Source: Calditrichota bacterium
Lineage (GTDB): Bacteria; Calditrichota; Calditrichia; Calditrichales; J004
Reading direction: 5' to 3'
DNA length: 44,833 bases
Assembly (NCBI GenBank): GCA_003696775.1
Contig: RFFS01000102.1
Span: forward strand, 1 to 44,833
Shown here: positions 3,614 to 19,063 of the stretch, one piece after another
How the letters are laid out: the number at the start of each line of letters is the position of its first letter
How positions within the stretch are numbered: position 1 is the first letter of the stretch
Notes under the pieces: model-generated
Told to the model about the DNA's origin: nothing
The model's input: only the letters and a program-made list of their open reading frames with translations
The model's database searches: none
Made by a program: the position numbers and the translations under genes

Positions 3614-4612
3614 TCATTCGGTGAGATTATTTTTCATGTTTAACGCCAACACAGCCTGACGGACGATCTGACCGGCGTTGGCCTGAGCGGTAATAAAATG
3701 CAGATTTTCGGCGCTTCCGGTGATCATCGGGCCGGTTACCTGCCAGCCACCGAGGTGTTCCGCCATTTTTACCGCGATATTACCGGAATCCAATGTAGGG
3801 AAAATAAACACATTCGCATTACCTTTCAAGCGGCCATGCGGCGCTTTTTTTGCGGCCACCGCGGCATCCAGGGCGGCGTCCACCTGATACGGGCCGTCAC
3901 ACAACACATCATCACTGTTTTTGTGCGCCCACTCAGCGGCGCGCCGTACCGTTTCCACCTTCGGATGATCGGCGCTGTCCATCGTGGCAAAGGAAAGCAG
4001 CGCCACCCGCGCCATCTCTCCCGTCAACTGCTTATACAGCCTGCCAAGCGTCACCGCCCGGTCACCCAGTTGTTCCGGCCCCGACCGTATGTTAAAACTG
4101 CAATCGCCAAATAACATCAGCCGTTTGGTTGCCGGATGACTCAGGGCATAAAAGGAAAAGATATGCCGGTTAACACCACGCGCCTTCCATAACGGCAGCA
4201 GGGTTTTTAAAAATTGATGCATGGTATGGTCGATGCCTGCCAGGCCCGCCCGCGCCCGTCCGGTAAACAGCGCGCCCCAGACGGCTGTCAGCGGATCACT
4301 AAACCTGTTGCGCCAGTACGGTCGGTTTAAATCCTTAAAAAAAAACGTACGTTTAAGCGCGGCATAAACCCCTTCTTCATCCGCCAGGCGAAGAGGTTTT
4401 TCGATGGATAGCCCACGGGTAACCAAACCTTGCTCCGACGCCACGTCACGAATGGTGAACGGCCCGCCCAACAATACGGGCCGGGCCAGCCCGGCATCCT
4501 GCAATATACGGGCGGCGCGTATCACATGGGGCGCTTCACCGGGATATAAAAGTACTTTTTCCGGTCGGGCGCGGCAGGTGTCGTAAAGTTTTGGCGGCAA
4601 TCCGTCCGTCAC
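3614..4612 (-). CDS. Phosphotransacetylase-fold protein (EutD/Pta-like) with altered active site
   Basis: 332 aa, the length of EutD/Pta single-domain phosphate acyltransferases, which interconvert acyl-CoA and acyl phosphate and regenerate CoA in metabolosomes. Family landmarks are FGDCSFNI near 168-175, EQLGD at 180-184, VALLSFAT at 203-210, [11 protein letters not shown] at 238-248, and [15 protein letters not shown] at 266-280. The terminal block is changed: the usual NDLSRG motif after the conserved GP...G segment is replaced here by HFITAQ (305-310), so the serine and arginine known to act in Methanosarcina Pta are Thr308 and Ala309. The segment matching GAVxTTADVLR is also divergent ([11 protein letters not shown]). 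It could be an acyltransferase with a different mechanism or substrate, or a structural paralogue. It overlaps the EutQ-like gene by 4 bp. The fold call is firm; the activity is uncertain. Confidence 0.8.
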
Positions 4613-4881
4613 TTTTCACCAACCACCTGTTTGATCACTTCCTCGATGCGGGCGCGGCTGATATTTTGATGTGGCAATTTGGCGCGTACCCGCTCCACGA
4701 TGGTATGCATATCGGCATGGGTTAAGCGGCTTGAAGCGGAGATATCCACCAGCTCCACATGGCATTCCGCAGCCAGACTGCGCGCCTGTGGCGTAACAAT
4801 ATGGGTGGCGCCGTCGTATTCCAGTCGCCCGCCGGCTTGTTGCGCCTCACGGATATGGTGGGCGGCGATCAGCTTTTTCAT
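4609..4881 (-). CDS. Stand-alone EutQ N-terminal-like domain (possible BMC cargo adapter)
   Basis: 90 aa. The first half (MKKLI...HHIREAQQAG, then HIVTPQARSLAAE) follows the pattern of the N-terminal extension of EutQ and related BMC proteins (ITxxDIRxAxxxG ... ITPxAxxxA). The second half has two short amphipathic helices, 54-69 (IVERVRAKL) and 76-89 (IEEVIKQVV), that resemble encapsulation peptides of lumen enzymes. The cupin domain that follows in EutQ (the acetate-kinase-like part) is absent, and the gene stops cleanly, so this is a domain-sized protein and not a truncated remnant. It overlaps ParA by 4 bp upstream and the Pta-like gene by 4 bp downstream, implying coordinated stoichiometry. 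A role bringing the Pta-like protein or ParA to the shell is inference. Confidence 0.7.
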   Translation of the reverse strand: MKKLIAAHHIREAQQAGGRLEYDGATHIVTPQARSLAAECHVELVDISASSRLTHADMHTIVERVRAKLPHQNISRARIEEVIKQVVGEK

Positions 4882-5654
4882 GTGCGTTTGTCCTTTTTAA
4901 TGCGCGATTGTATTTCCTGTGTCAGGGCGGCATATTCCCGCGCGCCGCGGGCGGCCGGTGTTTTAAACACTATGGGTTTTTGTGCGTTGTAGGCTTCCGT
5001 GAGCTTACTGTTCACACCGATCACCGTTTTCATCATCAGCTTTCCATGCTGTTGCCGCAGATGTTCCAAAACATCGCGGGCCACGCGCGTCCGCCGGTCG
5101 TACTGCGTTCCGAATATCCCCAATATTTTAAGATCAGGGTTTAGATGACGCCGGACTTTATCCACGGTTTTAAGGGTTAATTGCAAACCGTTTAAGGCCA
5201 AAAACTGCGTTTGTACCGGAATCAGCACATAGTCGGCCAGCGCCAGAGCGTTGAACGCCAGGGAACCCATATTGGGCGGACTGTCGAACAAAATATAATC
5301 GTAACGCTCCGGCAAATGCCCGCGCTCGAAAAAAAATCGGTCTTCCTGTTCATGAACCATTTCATCATAAAAATCACTCAGAGCCGGTTCCGAAGGCAGA
5401 CAATGCAGGTGTTTAAAGGCGGTCTCCCTGATAAAAGGATGAACATCGTCGGCACCTTCTAAAATAAAATCGCATAGCGTTTTGAAATCGCCGGTGTTTT
5501 TATCCAGCCCGAGATGCACGGATGCGCTGGCAGCCGGATCGAGATCGACCAACAGCGTCTTTTTGTTTTTTTGGGCCAAAGCCCCGGCAATATTGACCAC
5601 GCTGGTGGTTTTACCGACGCCCCCCTTATTATTGAGTACGACTATGCTGGTCAT
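4878..5654 (-). CDS. ParA/MinD-type positioning ATPase within the BMC operon (McdA-like)
   Basis: 258 aa deviant-Walker ATPase. The P-loop [10 protein letters not shown] starts at residue 8, with signature Lys10 and catalytic Lys15. LVDLDPAAS (35-43) is the second conserved motif, and FDSPPNMG is the Walker-B/switch II segment. The length is that of a small ParA without the N-terminal helix-turn-helix of plasmid ParA proteins, as in chromosomal cargo-positioning ParAs such as carboxysomal McdA. It sits inside the BMC operon, overlapping the EutK-like shell gene and the EutQ-like gene by 4 bp each, with no ParB gene nearby. Known ParA proteins bind DNA nonspecifically in the ATP state and move cargo through a partner that stimulates hydrolysis. 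Here the likely partner is the EutK-like shell protein or the 90-aa protein; that is inference. Confidence 0.9.
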
Positions 5655-6229
5655 GCGTCTATCGGAAAGTAGAGGTTTTTAACTTTTTCTATCCGGTCAC
5701 TATCCAGAAGTTCTTTCAACGCCAAACGTACCTTTTTCTTTTCAAGTCCGCTTTGATTGGTCAATGCTTCCAATGTCAGGCCGTTTTGGCTTTCCCGCAA
5801 CAATTCCAGCACCACCGCGCTGTCATCACGGCCAACCTCAACCGGCGCGGGTTTGGGCGTAGCCTTTTTAGTGCGTGATGAAGCGGTGCTTTTTTTACGA
5901 CTAACCGGACGGAGGGGTGACGGATCGGCAACGGGCACGCGGGGCGGTGTATCATTTTCCGGAGTTGGGAACAGCCAGTTTTCCGTATCCTCAAACGGTC
6001 GGGGAATCACATGGACACTAACCAGTTGTCCCAGACGTTCGGCAGCGGCGGCGCCCGCTTCCACGGCGGCCTGTACGGCGCCCAGCTCGCCCTCCACAAT
6101 AACCGTTACCAATGCGGAACCGATTTCCCGCCGCCGGGCCAGATGCACCCGCGCCGCTTTCAACATGGCATCGGCGGCTTCGATGGAACCGGTCAGTCCC
6201 TTGGTTTCTATGAATCCCAGAGCGTTCAA
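5651..6229 (-). CDS. EutK-like BMC shell protein with C-terminal winged-helix domain
   Basis: 192 aa. Residues 1-85 form a BMC domain ([30 protein letters not shown]). Residues 88-134 are a Pro/Ser/Lys-rich basic linker ([13 protein letters not shown]). Residues 136-192 form a helix-rich domain ending in a beta wing ([25 protein letters not shown] spans two helices), as in EutK, whose C-terminal domain is a winged helix proposed to bind nucleic acid. The start is TTG at 6229: alignment to other BMC proteins puts residue 2 directly after it, no ATG is available, and the Shine-Dalgarno is poor, so it is probably made in small amounts. The pore loop is REIGS. It is the first gene of the operon and overlaps parA by 4 bp. 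A shell-to-nucleoid or shell-to-ParA link is inferred. Confidence 0.88.
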
Positions 6230-15087: not shown

Positions 15088-16334
15088 ATGCAAATAACCG
15101 GCATGAAGTACGGCGCCCCCCTGTTGCGTCTGGCGGATTTTCCCGTACCGCATATCTTATCATCCGACGCCACCCTGGAAGAACTGAATCGCCTGATCGT
15201 CCAACGCGGTAAATGCGTGGTCAAGCCCGTTTTTTACGGCGGTGTCGGCAAAAAGGGTAAAGCGGGGCTGGTTAAAATCGTCTCCACGGCGCTGGAAGCG
15301 ATGGAAGCCAAAAAAAGCTCTACTTTGCCGGACACATCTTTCACAACCGCGTTATTACGGCTAATGGCGTAACCTTTGAGGAATTCATCCCCTCCTCTTA
15401 TGAAATTTATTTCAGTCTTTCCGTTTCCACGGTTACCCGCAAGGTCAATTTCACCTTAACCCATCACGGTGGCGTGGATATCGAAGAACTACCCGCCGAC
15501 CAAATCGTTGAATCCACATTTGACCCGATAACGGGACTTAAGGCCTATCACATTATCGACGCGCTCACCCGTTTGAATGCGCCGGGGGAAATTATCAGCC
15601 CGTTGGCCCGCTATTTACCCAAGCTATGGGAATTGTATAACGACTACGGCTTTATCATGCTGGAAATCAACCCCATCCGCATGGAGAACCGCAATGGGCG
15701 GCTGGTTCCGGTGGCCTGCGATTTTAAGGCGCAGTTTGATCAGGATAATCCGCAATGGAAACGGTTGCATCTGCCGGTGGAAGTTTTCCAGACCGATTTA
15801 ACGCCCTTTGAGGAAGAAATCAACCAGTTGCGCACCTATCAGGGGCAAAGCGATGTGGTGATCATCAATCCGGAAGGCACGGTGACCTCTTTTATGTTTG
15901 GCGGTGGCGCCAATAGCGCCTCCACGGAAATTCTTGGTGATAAAGCCACCATCTCCACCGATTTCGGCGGCAATCCACCCTATGAAAAGATGTATAGCAT
16001 CGCGCGCATTGTCTATCGGTACTGGCTGCAACAAAGCCGTGTTCTGCTGATCATCGGAGGCAAAGCCAACAACACCGATATCTTTGTTACCTTTAAGGGC
16101 ATGTTCGACGCCCTGCGTGACCACGCCGCGCACAACGGACGACCGGATATCTATGTTATTGTGGGCCGGGGCGGGCCTAATCTGATTAAAGGCATGGCCT
16201 ACGCCCGCGATGTGCTGGACCGTCTGGAACTGCCCTATACCTTTTTCGGGTACGATACATCCATCGTGGATGTGGTGCAATACGCCGTGGATATGGATAA
16301 CGCCCTGGCCGGTCAAAAGGAGGGGAGGTCATGA
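15088..16334 (+). CDS. ATP-citrate-lyase-like small subunit (SucC-type ATP-grasp), frameshifted
   Basis: Two frames together encode one protein of about 415 aa, close to AclB. Frame one starts at the ATG at 15088 (GGAGGA 4 nt upstream) and gives an ATP-grasp N terminus: VPHILSSDATLEELN and VVKPVFYGGVGKKGKAG. It runs into a stop at 15370 unless the reading shifts by -1 at the A7 run 15310-15316, after which LYFAGHIF, GVTFEEFIPSSYEIYFSLS and GGVDIEELP continue without a break to 16334. Later segments (LEINPIRM, FGGGANSASTEILGD, NTDIFVTFKG, VGRGGPN) match the ligase part of ATP-citrate lyase/succinyl-CoA synthetase beta chains. The 910-aa partner overlaps its stop by 4 bp. The gene may be sequenced wrongly by one A, mutated, or decoded by slippage. 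Confidence 0.78.
15310..15316 (+). other. A7 homopolymer at the frameshift in the AclB-like gene
   Basis: Zero-frame codons are GCC AAA AAA AGC. A -1 slip on the second AAA lets the next codon be AAG, giving Lys-Leu-Tyr-Phe-Ala in the correct frame. One extra A would give the same protein. The tract is thus either a deletion/assembly error in a homopolymer or a slippery site. No clear downstream pseudoknot or upstream Shine-Dalgarno-like stimulator was identified. Confidence 0.7.
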
Positions 16335-19063
16335 AAACGTTGATGGAACAATACAATCCGCTTACCTGCTGCCATGTGGGTATCCGTTCGCTTGAAGAGG
16401 TGGTCACCCGTGATACCCGCGTCTGCATTATGAACATTCTCGGAAACGAAAGCCGGAAAGTTTCACCCGTTTCGCACGCTTACAGCGGCGGCAACATCGT
16501 AGCCGGCGTGCAGTACGGCCGTTCCGCCGTGTTGCCCACGCCTGCGGGCGATATTCCCGTTTACAGCCGGCTGGCCGATGTGATGGATGTGCACACCTTT
16601 GATACCGGGGTGATTTACCTGCCACCGGAGGCGGTTTACAACGGCGTTACCGAGTTGTGCCATTACAACAAACAGTTAAAGAAAATCATCATCATCACCG
16701 AAAAAGTTTCGGTAAAAGACCAAAGGTTGATCCGCGCCATTTGTCAGGCCAATCACATCGACCTGTTTGGCGCCAACTGTCTCGGTGTGGCCGATGCATG
16801 GCAACATGTTCGGGTGGGTGGCGCGCTGGGGGGTGATCATCCGGAAGAAACCCTAAAAAAAGGCAGCGTGGCCATTCACAGCAACTCCGGCAATTTCAGC
16901 ACCACCATCGCCGAATATCTGAAAACACAGGGGTTTGGCGTCACAACTGTGATCAGCTCCGGCAAGGATGTGATCATCCAGTTCGCCGTGGCGGAATTTT
17001 TATTCGCCGCGCAAAACGATCCGCGCACCAAGGCCGTGGCTCTTTATGTGGAACCGGGCGGCTATTATGAAAAGCAGGCTCTGGATTTGATCGAAAACGG
17101 CGCCCTGCCCTTCGATAAACCCATGGTGGTTTGCGTGACCGGTCGCTGGAAATCCAACCTCAGCCGGGCCTGCGGACATGCCGGGGCCCTGGCCGGTTCC
17201 GGAGACGACGCGGCAAGCAAGGAAGCCTGGTTTGATGCCTATTTCGGCGTTCCGGCCTTCGATCCCGAGCAACCCCGGCGGGTTTCCAAACGCGGCGTCC
17301 GGGTGGCGTCCATTCAGCACATCCCTCTGGCGATGAAAGCCGTTTATGAAGTAACGGGAATGAGCTGCGATTTTGAGCCCAGCGGCTCTCTCGGACTTAA
17401 GCCCTGGTTTATCAACAACTTCGGTCGAACGCTGCCGCTCTCTCTCAGACTGGATGTGCACACCGCTCCGGAACCCTATGCCGCCCGGATTGAAGAGGTT
17501 AACCGCGCCCTGGGCGCCACCTTAATACGCCAAAACATGCGCAACGCTTCCGGTGCCTCGCACATCGATACCTCCACCTACGTGGCCGCCCTGCACAATG
17601 TCCCTGTGGTGGACCTGGCCGATTTCAGTTACGAAGAAAACATCTTTTTTTCTCTCAGCGCCCGTCATCCGGAAAAAGAACTGCTGCCTGTTCTGAACAT
17701 GTGCCTCAATTACCTTTCCATTCCGGGTAATGCCGCACTGCAAACAGCCCGTTCGGCCCGCCGCGCCGGGGCTACTCCCAACCAGGTGCTGGCCGGCGCT
17801 CTGGCCTGCGTGGGCGACAACCGGGAACGGCATGTGGCCCGCCGTTATATGAGCGGTCTTATCGACATCATGGGCGCGCTTGCCCTGCGCGATCTGCATC
17901 ATTACGACAAAGCCGCCGGGCTGAAGAAAGCGCTGCGCGAAACTTTTACATTCACCCAGGCCCCGGCCGCGTCCGATGCTTTTCCCTCATTGTTAATGAA
18001 AGCCATCCGTTCTCTGCCGGAACCGGGCGTTTTACTGAAATGCGTGACCGATGTGCTGGAAGAGGGGTACCCGGAACACGCGGAGTGGTTTTTGATAGCG
18101 GCCGTTGCCCTGCATGCGGTTTATCCTTCCCTGGCCCTTAAACAAATGGCGCGCCAAACCGCGGAAGATTTACCGGGCTATTTAAGCGTTGTGGCACAAA
18201 CCCTTTGGCTGAGTGTACCGCAACCGGAAGAGCGCCCATTGTTCAAGGCGCTGTCCGCCCGGGAAGATACCGCTATTCTGAGCCGTTCGTTCACGGAAAT
18301 TGCCTACGAAGCCTTATTCAATCATGCGCCGGATGCTATCGGCTTAAGGGAATTCAACGCCCTGCTGGCCCTTACCCTGACCAACGGGCCGGGTACGTTA
18401 AGCGCCAAGGGCGCCAAGGAGAGCGTCAGCGCGCGGAATCATATCTCCACGGCATTTATGGGATTTTTAACCAACACCGGCCTGTCACACGGCGGTAGCG
18501 GTTACGAAGCGGTGCAATACCTGCTGGAATCCTTTAAGGGCCGCGAACCGGAAGACCCGGCCGATATCTCCCGTCCCGGCGCCATACGTGAGCTGGCCCG
18601 CGAACGGGCGCTCGCTTTCAAAGAATATAAAGAAGCCGAAAAAGTACGCGGCGCCACCCGCTATAAACGGATTCCCTGTATCAACCATCCCGTGTTCAAA
18701 GGCAAGCGGGTCAACACTGATCCACGCGAGGCCTATATCCGTAAGCATTTACGCGAGGCGGGCGTCACCAATGTATTTTGGGAATTTTACCACGCTCTGG
18801 TGGAAGCCCTGTACGATGTGGGCGCCACATCAAATGTCTATTGCGTCAATATCGATGCGGTGATCGCCGTGATTTCGCTGAAATTGATGTGGAAGCCGTG
18901 GCGGGAAGGCCGGATGAAGGAACAGGATATGCAGGATATCGGTTTCCTCGTTTTTCTGCTGGGACGCACGGCCGGTATCGCCGCGGAAATAGCCGACCAT
19001 CGCAGCCGGGGGCAGGATATGGATTGCCGCACGCCTTTAAAAGAAACCCGCTACGTGGTTTAG
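16331..19063 (+). CDS. ATP-citrate-lyase-like large subunit with extended citrate-synthase region
   Basis: 910 aa, about 300 more than AclA of Chlorobi. Residues 1-330 are the CoA-binding and CoA-ligase parts, with SNSGNFSTT at 184-192 and the phosphohistidine motif GHAGALAGS (His283). Residues 430-515 resemble the start of a citrate-synthase-homology domain (SYEENIFFSLSARHP, then NYLSIPGNAALQTARSARRAGAT). Residues 650-735 resemble the same segment again (SFTEIAYEALFNHAP, LTLTNGPGTL, SHGGSGYEAVQYLL). Residues 780-910 hold the catalytic-type HPVFKG block (His786), VNIDAVIAV, GFLVFLLGRTAG and the ALC-like end. The family cleaves citrate with CoA and ATP to acetyl-CoA and oxaloacetate. Its start overlaps the small-subunit stop by 4 bp. 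Activity on citrate or a homologue is inferred. Confidence 0.82.
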   Translation: MKTLMEQYNPLTCCHVGIRSLEEVVTRDTRVCIMNILGNESRKVSPVSHAYSGGNIVAGVQYGRSAVLPTPAGDIPVYSRLADVMDVHTFDTGVIYLPPEAVYNGVTELCHYNKQLKKIIIITEKVSVKDQRLIRAICQANHIDLFGANCLGVADAWQHVRVGGALGGDHPEETLKKGSVAIHSNSGNFSTTIAEYLKTQGFGVTTVISSGKDVIIQFAVAEFLFAAQNDPRTKAVALYVEPGGYYEKQALDLIENGALPFDKPMVVCVTGRWKSNLSRACGHAGALAGSGDDAASKEAWFDAYFGVPAFDPEQPRRVSKRGVRVASIQHIPLAMKAVYEVTGMSCDFEPSGSLGLKPWFINNFGRTLPLSLRLDVHTAPEPYAARIEEVNRALGATLIRQNMRNASGASHIDTSTYVAALHNVPVVDLADFSYEENIFFSLSARHPEKELLPVLNMCLNYLSIPGNAALQTARSARRAGATPNQVLAGALACVGDNRERHVARRYMSGLIDIMGALALRDLHHYDKAAGLKKALRETFTFTQAPAASDAFPSLLMKAIRSLPEPGVLLKCVTDVLEEGYPEHAEWFLIAAVALHAVYPSLALKQMARQTAEDLPGYLSVVAQTLWLSVPQPEERPLFKALSAREDTAILSRSFTEIAYEALFNHAPDAIGLREFNALLALTLTNGPGTLSAKGAKESVSARNHISTAFMGFLTNTGLSHGGSGYEAVQYLLESFKGREPEDPADISRPGAIRELARERALAFKEYKEAEKVRGATRYKRIPCINHPVFKGKRVNTDPREAYIRKHLREAGVTNVFWEFYHALVEALYDVGATSNVYCVNIDAVIAVISLKLMWKPWREGRMKEQDMQDIGFLVFLLGRTAGIAAEIADHRSRGQDMDCRTPLKETRYVV

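Follow-up and report, generated by a model that had tools for sequence, protein, structure and literature searches.

A probable type II ATP-citrate lyase large subunit of Calditrichota carrying a tandem of one conserved and one degenerate citrate synthase homology module

The 44,833-nucleotide contig RFFS01000102.1 of a Calditrichota bacterium (assembly GCA_003696775.1; the whole stretch is referred to as the window) carries at positions 16331-19063 of the forward strand an open reading frame (ORF) of 910 amino acids (aa) that very probably encodes the alpha (large) chain of a type II ATP-citrate lyase (ACL), with the second of its two citrate synthase homology (CSH) modules predicted to be active and the first probably acting as a built-in structural partner. 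The first-pass annotation of the sequence had already noted an excess of about 300 residues over AclA, and this holds for the type I protein: ORFs of the type I kind that we fetched encode 610-621 aa. It begins with a CoA-binding and ligase domain similar to the succinyl-CoA synthetase alpha subunit (SCS-alpha) and to CcsB (residues 24-300, positions 16400-17230, forward strand; Pfam Succ_CoA_lig and CoA_binding), for which the small subunit of citryl-CoA synthetase gives the best match in the Protein Data Bank (PDB) (6hxq, E 7.3e-31). This domain is followed on the same strand by CSH module 1, a degenerate pseudo-lyase (residues ~425-640, positions 17603-18250), and by CSH module 2, a predicted active citryl-CoA lyase (residues ~648-905, positions 18272-19045).

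The two modules are homologous to each other. Two parts were cut from an alignment of 23 homologues, one covering residues 383-650 and the other residues 640-910, and comparing them profile against profile paired residues 430-635 with 650-893 over 205 columns (probability 97.4%, E 1.3e-11). The score of 80.3, compared with 13.2 for the reversed alignment and 22.5 for the best of 40 column shuffles, excludes a chance likeness; the SCS-alpha part gave no match to module 1. Together with the matches to Pfam Citrate_synt and the fold matches described below, this bears out the earlier proposal that a citrate-synthase segment is duplicated in an ACL-like large subunit. The repeat had been placed at residues 430-515 and 650-735; its homology holds, but its extent does not, since whole domains rather than 85 residues are repeated.

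Module 2 is recognized by Pfam Citrate_synt in 22 of the 23 members (E 1.3e-4 in the window), and it matches citryl-CoA lyase both as the solved structure 6hxp (E 5.6e-7) and as a sequence model (residues 653-901, E 1.1e-7). Matches to module 1 are sparser: Pfam Citrate_synt finds it in the closest relative, L003 (E 1.1e-5), and NCBIfam citryl-CoA lyase models find it in two members (best E 1.8e-4), one such model scoring best at residues 452-510 of L047, i.e., in module 1. Searching the PDB with a HMMER profile built from module 1 by itself gave no relatives, and Pfam did not match the window's own module 1; sequence-only tools therefore miss this domain, and profile-profile and fold comparisons are required to see it. 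The isolated module 1 (residues 383-650, 21 sequences) was predicted to fold with a pLDDT (predicted local distance difference test) of 86.7 and a pTM (predicted template modeling score) of 0.83, and the first 36 PDB matches of this model in Foldseek are all citryl-CoA lyases or ATP-citrate lyases (ACLY), with citrate synthases next; for 6hxp, E is 2.5e-4, the probability 1.00 and the TM-score ~0.5. The possibility that residues 430-640 are unrelated to citrate synthase, raised at the outset, is thereby not borne out. An equivalence of module 1 with the N-terminal half of citrate synthase found no support: the match is weak, and module 2 and citryl-CoA lyase are both nearer to module 1. In a combined tree each module forms one clade (support 99) and the two are sisters (96) with matching sub-clades, which points to one tandem duplication before the family radiated; given the long branches, the sister placement is tentative.

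The catalytic residues of the lyase are confined to the second module. H720 of HGGSGYEA (positions 18488-18490), H786 of NHPVFKG...DPRE (18686-18688) and D842 of NIDAVIA (18854-18856), all on the forward strand, are identical in 23/23 members, as are the GG after H720, D797-P798-R799 and, in the SCS-alpha-like domain, the candidate phosphohistidine H283 of GHAGA. Module 1 contains neither HGG nor NHP in any of the 23 members, and in the window it has HAEWF where module 2 has NIDAV, in agreement with the first-pass observation that only the second copy carries the His/Asp block. An Asp at the position of D842 is kept in module 1 of some members, for instance L009 and L042 (in L009, TDALFGAVWTTLGW vs IDAVIAVILLKVVW). 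Module 1 evolves faster than module 2, as judged from its identity to the window copy (22-48% vs 42-76%); it is present at full length in all members, which belong to several phyla, and keeps a few invariant residues.

Published work places type II ACL in magnetotactic cocci, in Thioflavicoccus and in the symbionts of tubeworms (PMC3522073, PMC6315080, PMC6783814 and PMC5459899), and PMC3522073 gives type II primers, acl2F1 and acl2R1, that encode the peptides VAKEEWF and NGFEAIA. The counterpart of the first peptide in the window is KEAWF (residues 297-301, positions 17219-17233, forward strand). Both KE.WF and HGG.G[FY]E are found in 23/23 members, including the window itself, and in 0/69 comparators (30 citryl-CoA lyases, 31 citrate synthases, 5 type I ACLs and 3 citrate synthase fusions). 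The primer sites lie in register, ~1.29 kb apart (spacings 1285-1297), and at the DNA level the mismatches to acl2F1 and acl2R1 number 5+2 in L043, 4+4 in L050 and 3+6 in L009. In the tree of the N-terminal domain the family stands apart from type I AclA with a support of 100, and in the trees of both domains, which are quick trees with long branches, it forms one clade (support 100) separate from type I. Because the published primers match in register and the motifs they encode separate the members from the comparators, the family very probably represents the type II ACL already described. The protein is not a type I AclA, which has a single CSH domain and ~600-630 aa: it has two such domains and belongs to a separate clade. 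An established family of the same length, which the first-pass annotation had named as something that would count against its reading, does exist: 23 complete homologue frames span 902-946 aa and match the type II primers, so that the double-module architecture is a fixed trait of the family. The accessible text of the type II ACL papers PMC3522073, PMC6315080, PMC6783814 and PMC5459899 makes no mention of two lyase domains or of a dead-plus-live tandem; since the original 2011 review and several supplements lie outside this scope, we claim no priority.

The large-subunit ATG shares 4 bp with the stop codon of an upstream partner gene (positions 15088-16334, forward strand) for the small (beta) subunit, which has an ATP-grasp and a citrate-binding domain and is ~414 aa long in relatives. 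It was located by tblastn, and it matches Pfam Citrate_bind (E 1.1e-21) as well as ATP-grasp models. A gene of this kind lies directly upstream at 22 of the 23 homologue loci. In the window a one-base shift within an A7 run (15310-15316) breaks its frame: residues 1-76 of the intact L003 subunit map to 15088-15315 (88% identity) and residues 74-413 to 15306-16325 in a different frame (88.5% identity); L003, L004 and L007 are intact. Given the 88% identity on either side, the simplest reading of the shift is a sequencing or assembly error, a genuine break being possible. Aligned to human ACLY, the partner keeps the ANxT loop and the R of the R-GGPN positions, where the human enzyme binds citrate, and for this reason citrate is likely the substrate of the alpha/beta pair.

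By homology with ATP-citrate lyase, we infer that the beta subunit would phosphorylate H283 of alpha using ATP, that the phosphate would pass to citrate to give citryl-phosphate, from which CoA would displace it to form citryl-CoA, and that module 2, with H720, H786 and D842, would split citryl-CoA into acetyl-CoA and oxaloacetate. Module 1 is an ancient tandem duplicate, made within this lineage, that has lost both catalytic histidines and retained its fold. It is probably a structural partner of the active copy, and a role as a subunit-interface piece, as the first-pass annotation suggested, is plausible. The lyase core of type I ACL consists of four modules. In the arrangement that we propose for the type II enzyme, module 1 would stand in for one protomer of this core, and two chains instead of four could then supply the four modules. 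A bolder extension, for which we would give somewhat less than even odds, is that the internal pseudo-lyase takes half of the type II lyase core, giving an enzyme of two alpha and two beta subunits that has half as many active sites as type I, and that it represents an independent, fused route from a single module to the larger citrate synthase architecture.

The loss of both catalytic histidines and the faster divergence of module 1 would also be expected of a functionless relic heading for loss, a reading that the first-pass annotation had entertained and that we consider improbable: no member examined has lost the first copy, which is full-length across several phyla, keeps a few invariant residues and is predicted to fold coherently. 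It is likewise unlikely that module 1 is a regulatory or ligand-binding domain without catalysis, one that would bind, for example, citrate, acetyl-CoA or CoA: since some members keep the Asp at the D842 position a partial pocket may persist in them, but the pocket residues of module 1 are not conserved family-wide.

The ACL reaction is reversible in principle, and the 100% complete genome G209 has the large-subunit gene and no Pfam citrate synthase match, as would suit an enzyme working mainly in reverse, an alternative citrate former that yields ATP. Ordinary citrate synthase is nevertheless present in the window's genome and in 12 of the 13 carriers in a sample of 385 genomes, and the transporters beside the proteobacterial pairs suggest citrate use, so that we think there is little chance of this being the main direction. 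Another tricarboxylic acid as substrate had also been suggested at first pass. The reading of the enzyme as a lyase or synthetase for, e.g., methylcitrate, isocitrate or homocitrate draws on the distance of the sequence from characterized ACLs, on the fact that homology alone does not reveal a substrate, and on the generic tricarboxylate and dicarboxylate types of the neighboring transporters. It is very improbable in view of the match of the partner to the citrate-binding domain and its conserved human ACLY positions; moreover, the literature ties the primer-matched enzymes of tubeworm symbionts to citrate cleavage (PMC3522073) and reports citrate cleavage activity in Magnetococcus MC-1, an organism whose genes are exclusively of type II (PMC6783814).

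Some observations weigh against our interpretation of the 910-aa protein as a type II ACL subunit with a structural first module. The model of the full-length large subunit, made from 5 sequences, is too weak to place the domains (pLDDT 65, pTM 0.52), and against known lyases module 1 reaches TM-scores of only ~0.45-0.56. The argument for identity with the type II ACL of the Riftia symbiont and of Magnetococcus is strong but indirect, drawing on primers and motifs. As the partner gene is frameshifted, the window's own lyase copy may be inactive unless the A7 shift is a sequencing error.

The double-module protein is not confined to one genome. Searching the 385 sampled genomes with a profile built on residues 305-910 turned up the family in 13 of them, with complete frames all of ~900 aa, and class-level searches supplied more homologues. 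Among the Calditrichia genomes G000-G039, the window's taxonomic family has type II ACL (present in G000, G001, G003 and G005, absent from G002 and G004) and many others of the class have a standalone citryl-CoA lyase. None of these genomes was found with both. Across ~370 genomes, too, the carriers of type II ACL (13) and those of standalone citryl-CoA lyase (40) do not overlap, in numbers too small for significance. A Flavobacteriaceae metagenome-assembled genome (MAG) holds a copy with 54% identity, which makes horizontal spread of the large-subunit gene likely. Homologues occur on 19 plasmids with hosts including Microvirga, Sinorhizobium and Paraburkholderia (42-45% identity among the matches listed), where a "CoA-binding protein" is annotated beside an "ATP citrate lyase citrate-binding domain-containing protein". 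The pair is accompanied by TctAB and a two-component system on the Microvirga plasmid and by an MFS transporter, DctA and LysR on the Paraburkholderia plasmid; at L050, L076 and L077, on rhizobial and Paraburkholderia plasmids, aclBA adjoins tricarboxylate, MFS or dicarboxylate transporters. This neighborhood suggests that the plasmid pairs serve citrate catabolism in heterotrophs. In the window the pair is adjoined by unrelated genes for an ABC transporter ATPase, a glycosyltransferase, proline dehydrogenase and NAPRTase. The window's genome also encodes 2-oxoacid:ferredoxin oxidoreductases, but we rejected this enzyme as a sign of a reductive tricarboxylic acid (TCA) cycle: it was present in 16/16 genomes tested, including lyase-free relatives, and is uninformative. 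The lyase may serve acetyl-CoA supply, the use of citrate or a reductive TCA branch.

A further large-subunit architecture of 718-731 aa, with SCS-alpha fused to a citrate-synthase-like region, was seen in L147 (2738-4930, genome G284), L148 (2317-4485, G257) and L149 (1952-4105, G183). L147 covers positions 13-362 of the 368 of TIGR01800, an ATP-grasp-sized ORF lies upstream of the large subunit in L147 and L149, and in L149 a stretch of ~90 residues ahead of the lyase aligns with the beginning of a citryl-CoA lyase. L146 (G162) has two overlapping citryl-CoA-lyase-like ORFs (4217-5050 and 5032-5916), both without HGG, beside an acetolactate-synthase-like gene. In G209 the citrate step may be reversible or carried out by the lyase only.

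ATP-citrate lyase is used as a marker for inferring carbon fixation by the reductive TCA cycle, and human ACLY is a drug target; what is known of the type II enzyme comes chiefly from genome papers and the physiology of tubeworm symbionts. The additional lyase domain that accounts for its extra length, conserved but catalytically dead, provides a structural hypothesis and a sequence signature for type II ACL, and the tandem is a further architecture to consider in relating lyase modules to citrate synthase. The presence of aclBA near citrate-type transporters on plasmids of heterotrophic rhizobia and Paraburkholderia cautions against taking aclA as proof of autotrophy.

The family shares the two-gene aclBA layout with the type II ACL of Riftia and Tevnia symbionts, Thioflavicoccus and Magnetococcus (Mmc1_3638/3639; PMC3522073, PMC6315080 and PMC6783814), and every member has counterparts of the primer peptides VAKEEWF and NGFEAIA in the same places; unlike the published type II enzymes, with which it was compared by primers and motifs, it occurs in Calditrichia, a Flavobacteriaceae MAG and plasmid-bearing rhizobia and Paraburkholderia. 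Type I ACL (Chlorobium AclAB 6hxj, Methanothrix 6hxi, human ACLY) likewise has an SCS-alpha-like part followed by a CSH domain and an ATP-grasp/citrate-binding partner, but its large subunit, 617-631 aa in the PDB, has one CSH domain whereas the family described here has two, the first degenerate. The nearest solved structures, 6hxq_A for the N-terminal domain and 6hxp for both lyase modules, come from the citryl-CoA synthetase/lyase system, in which the genes are separate and the single lyase has ~260-275 aa; in the present family the parts form one fusion with two copies of the lyase. Citrate synthase has the distant CSH fold in common with the family, as the match of Pfam Citrate_synt to module 2 indicates, but it is without the ATP/CoA ligase part, and module 1 matches it weakly.

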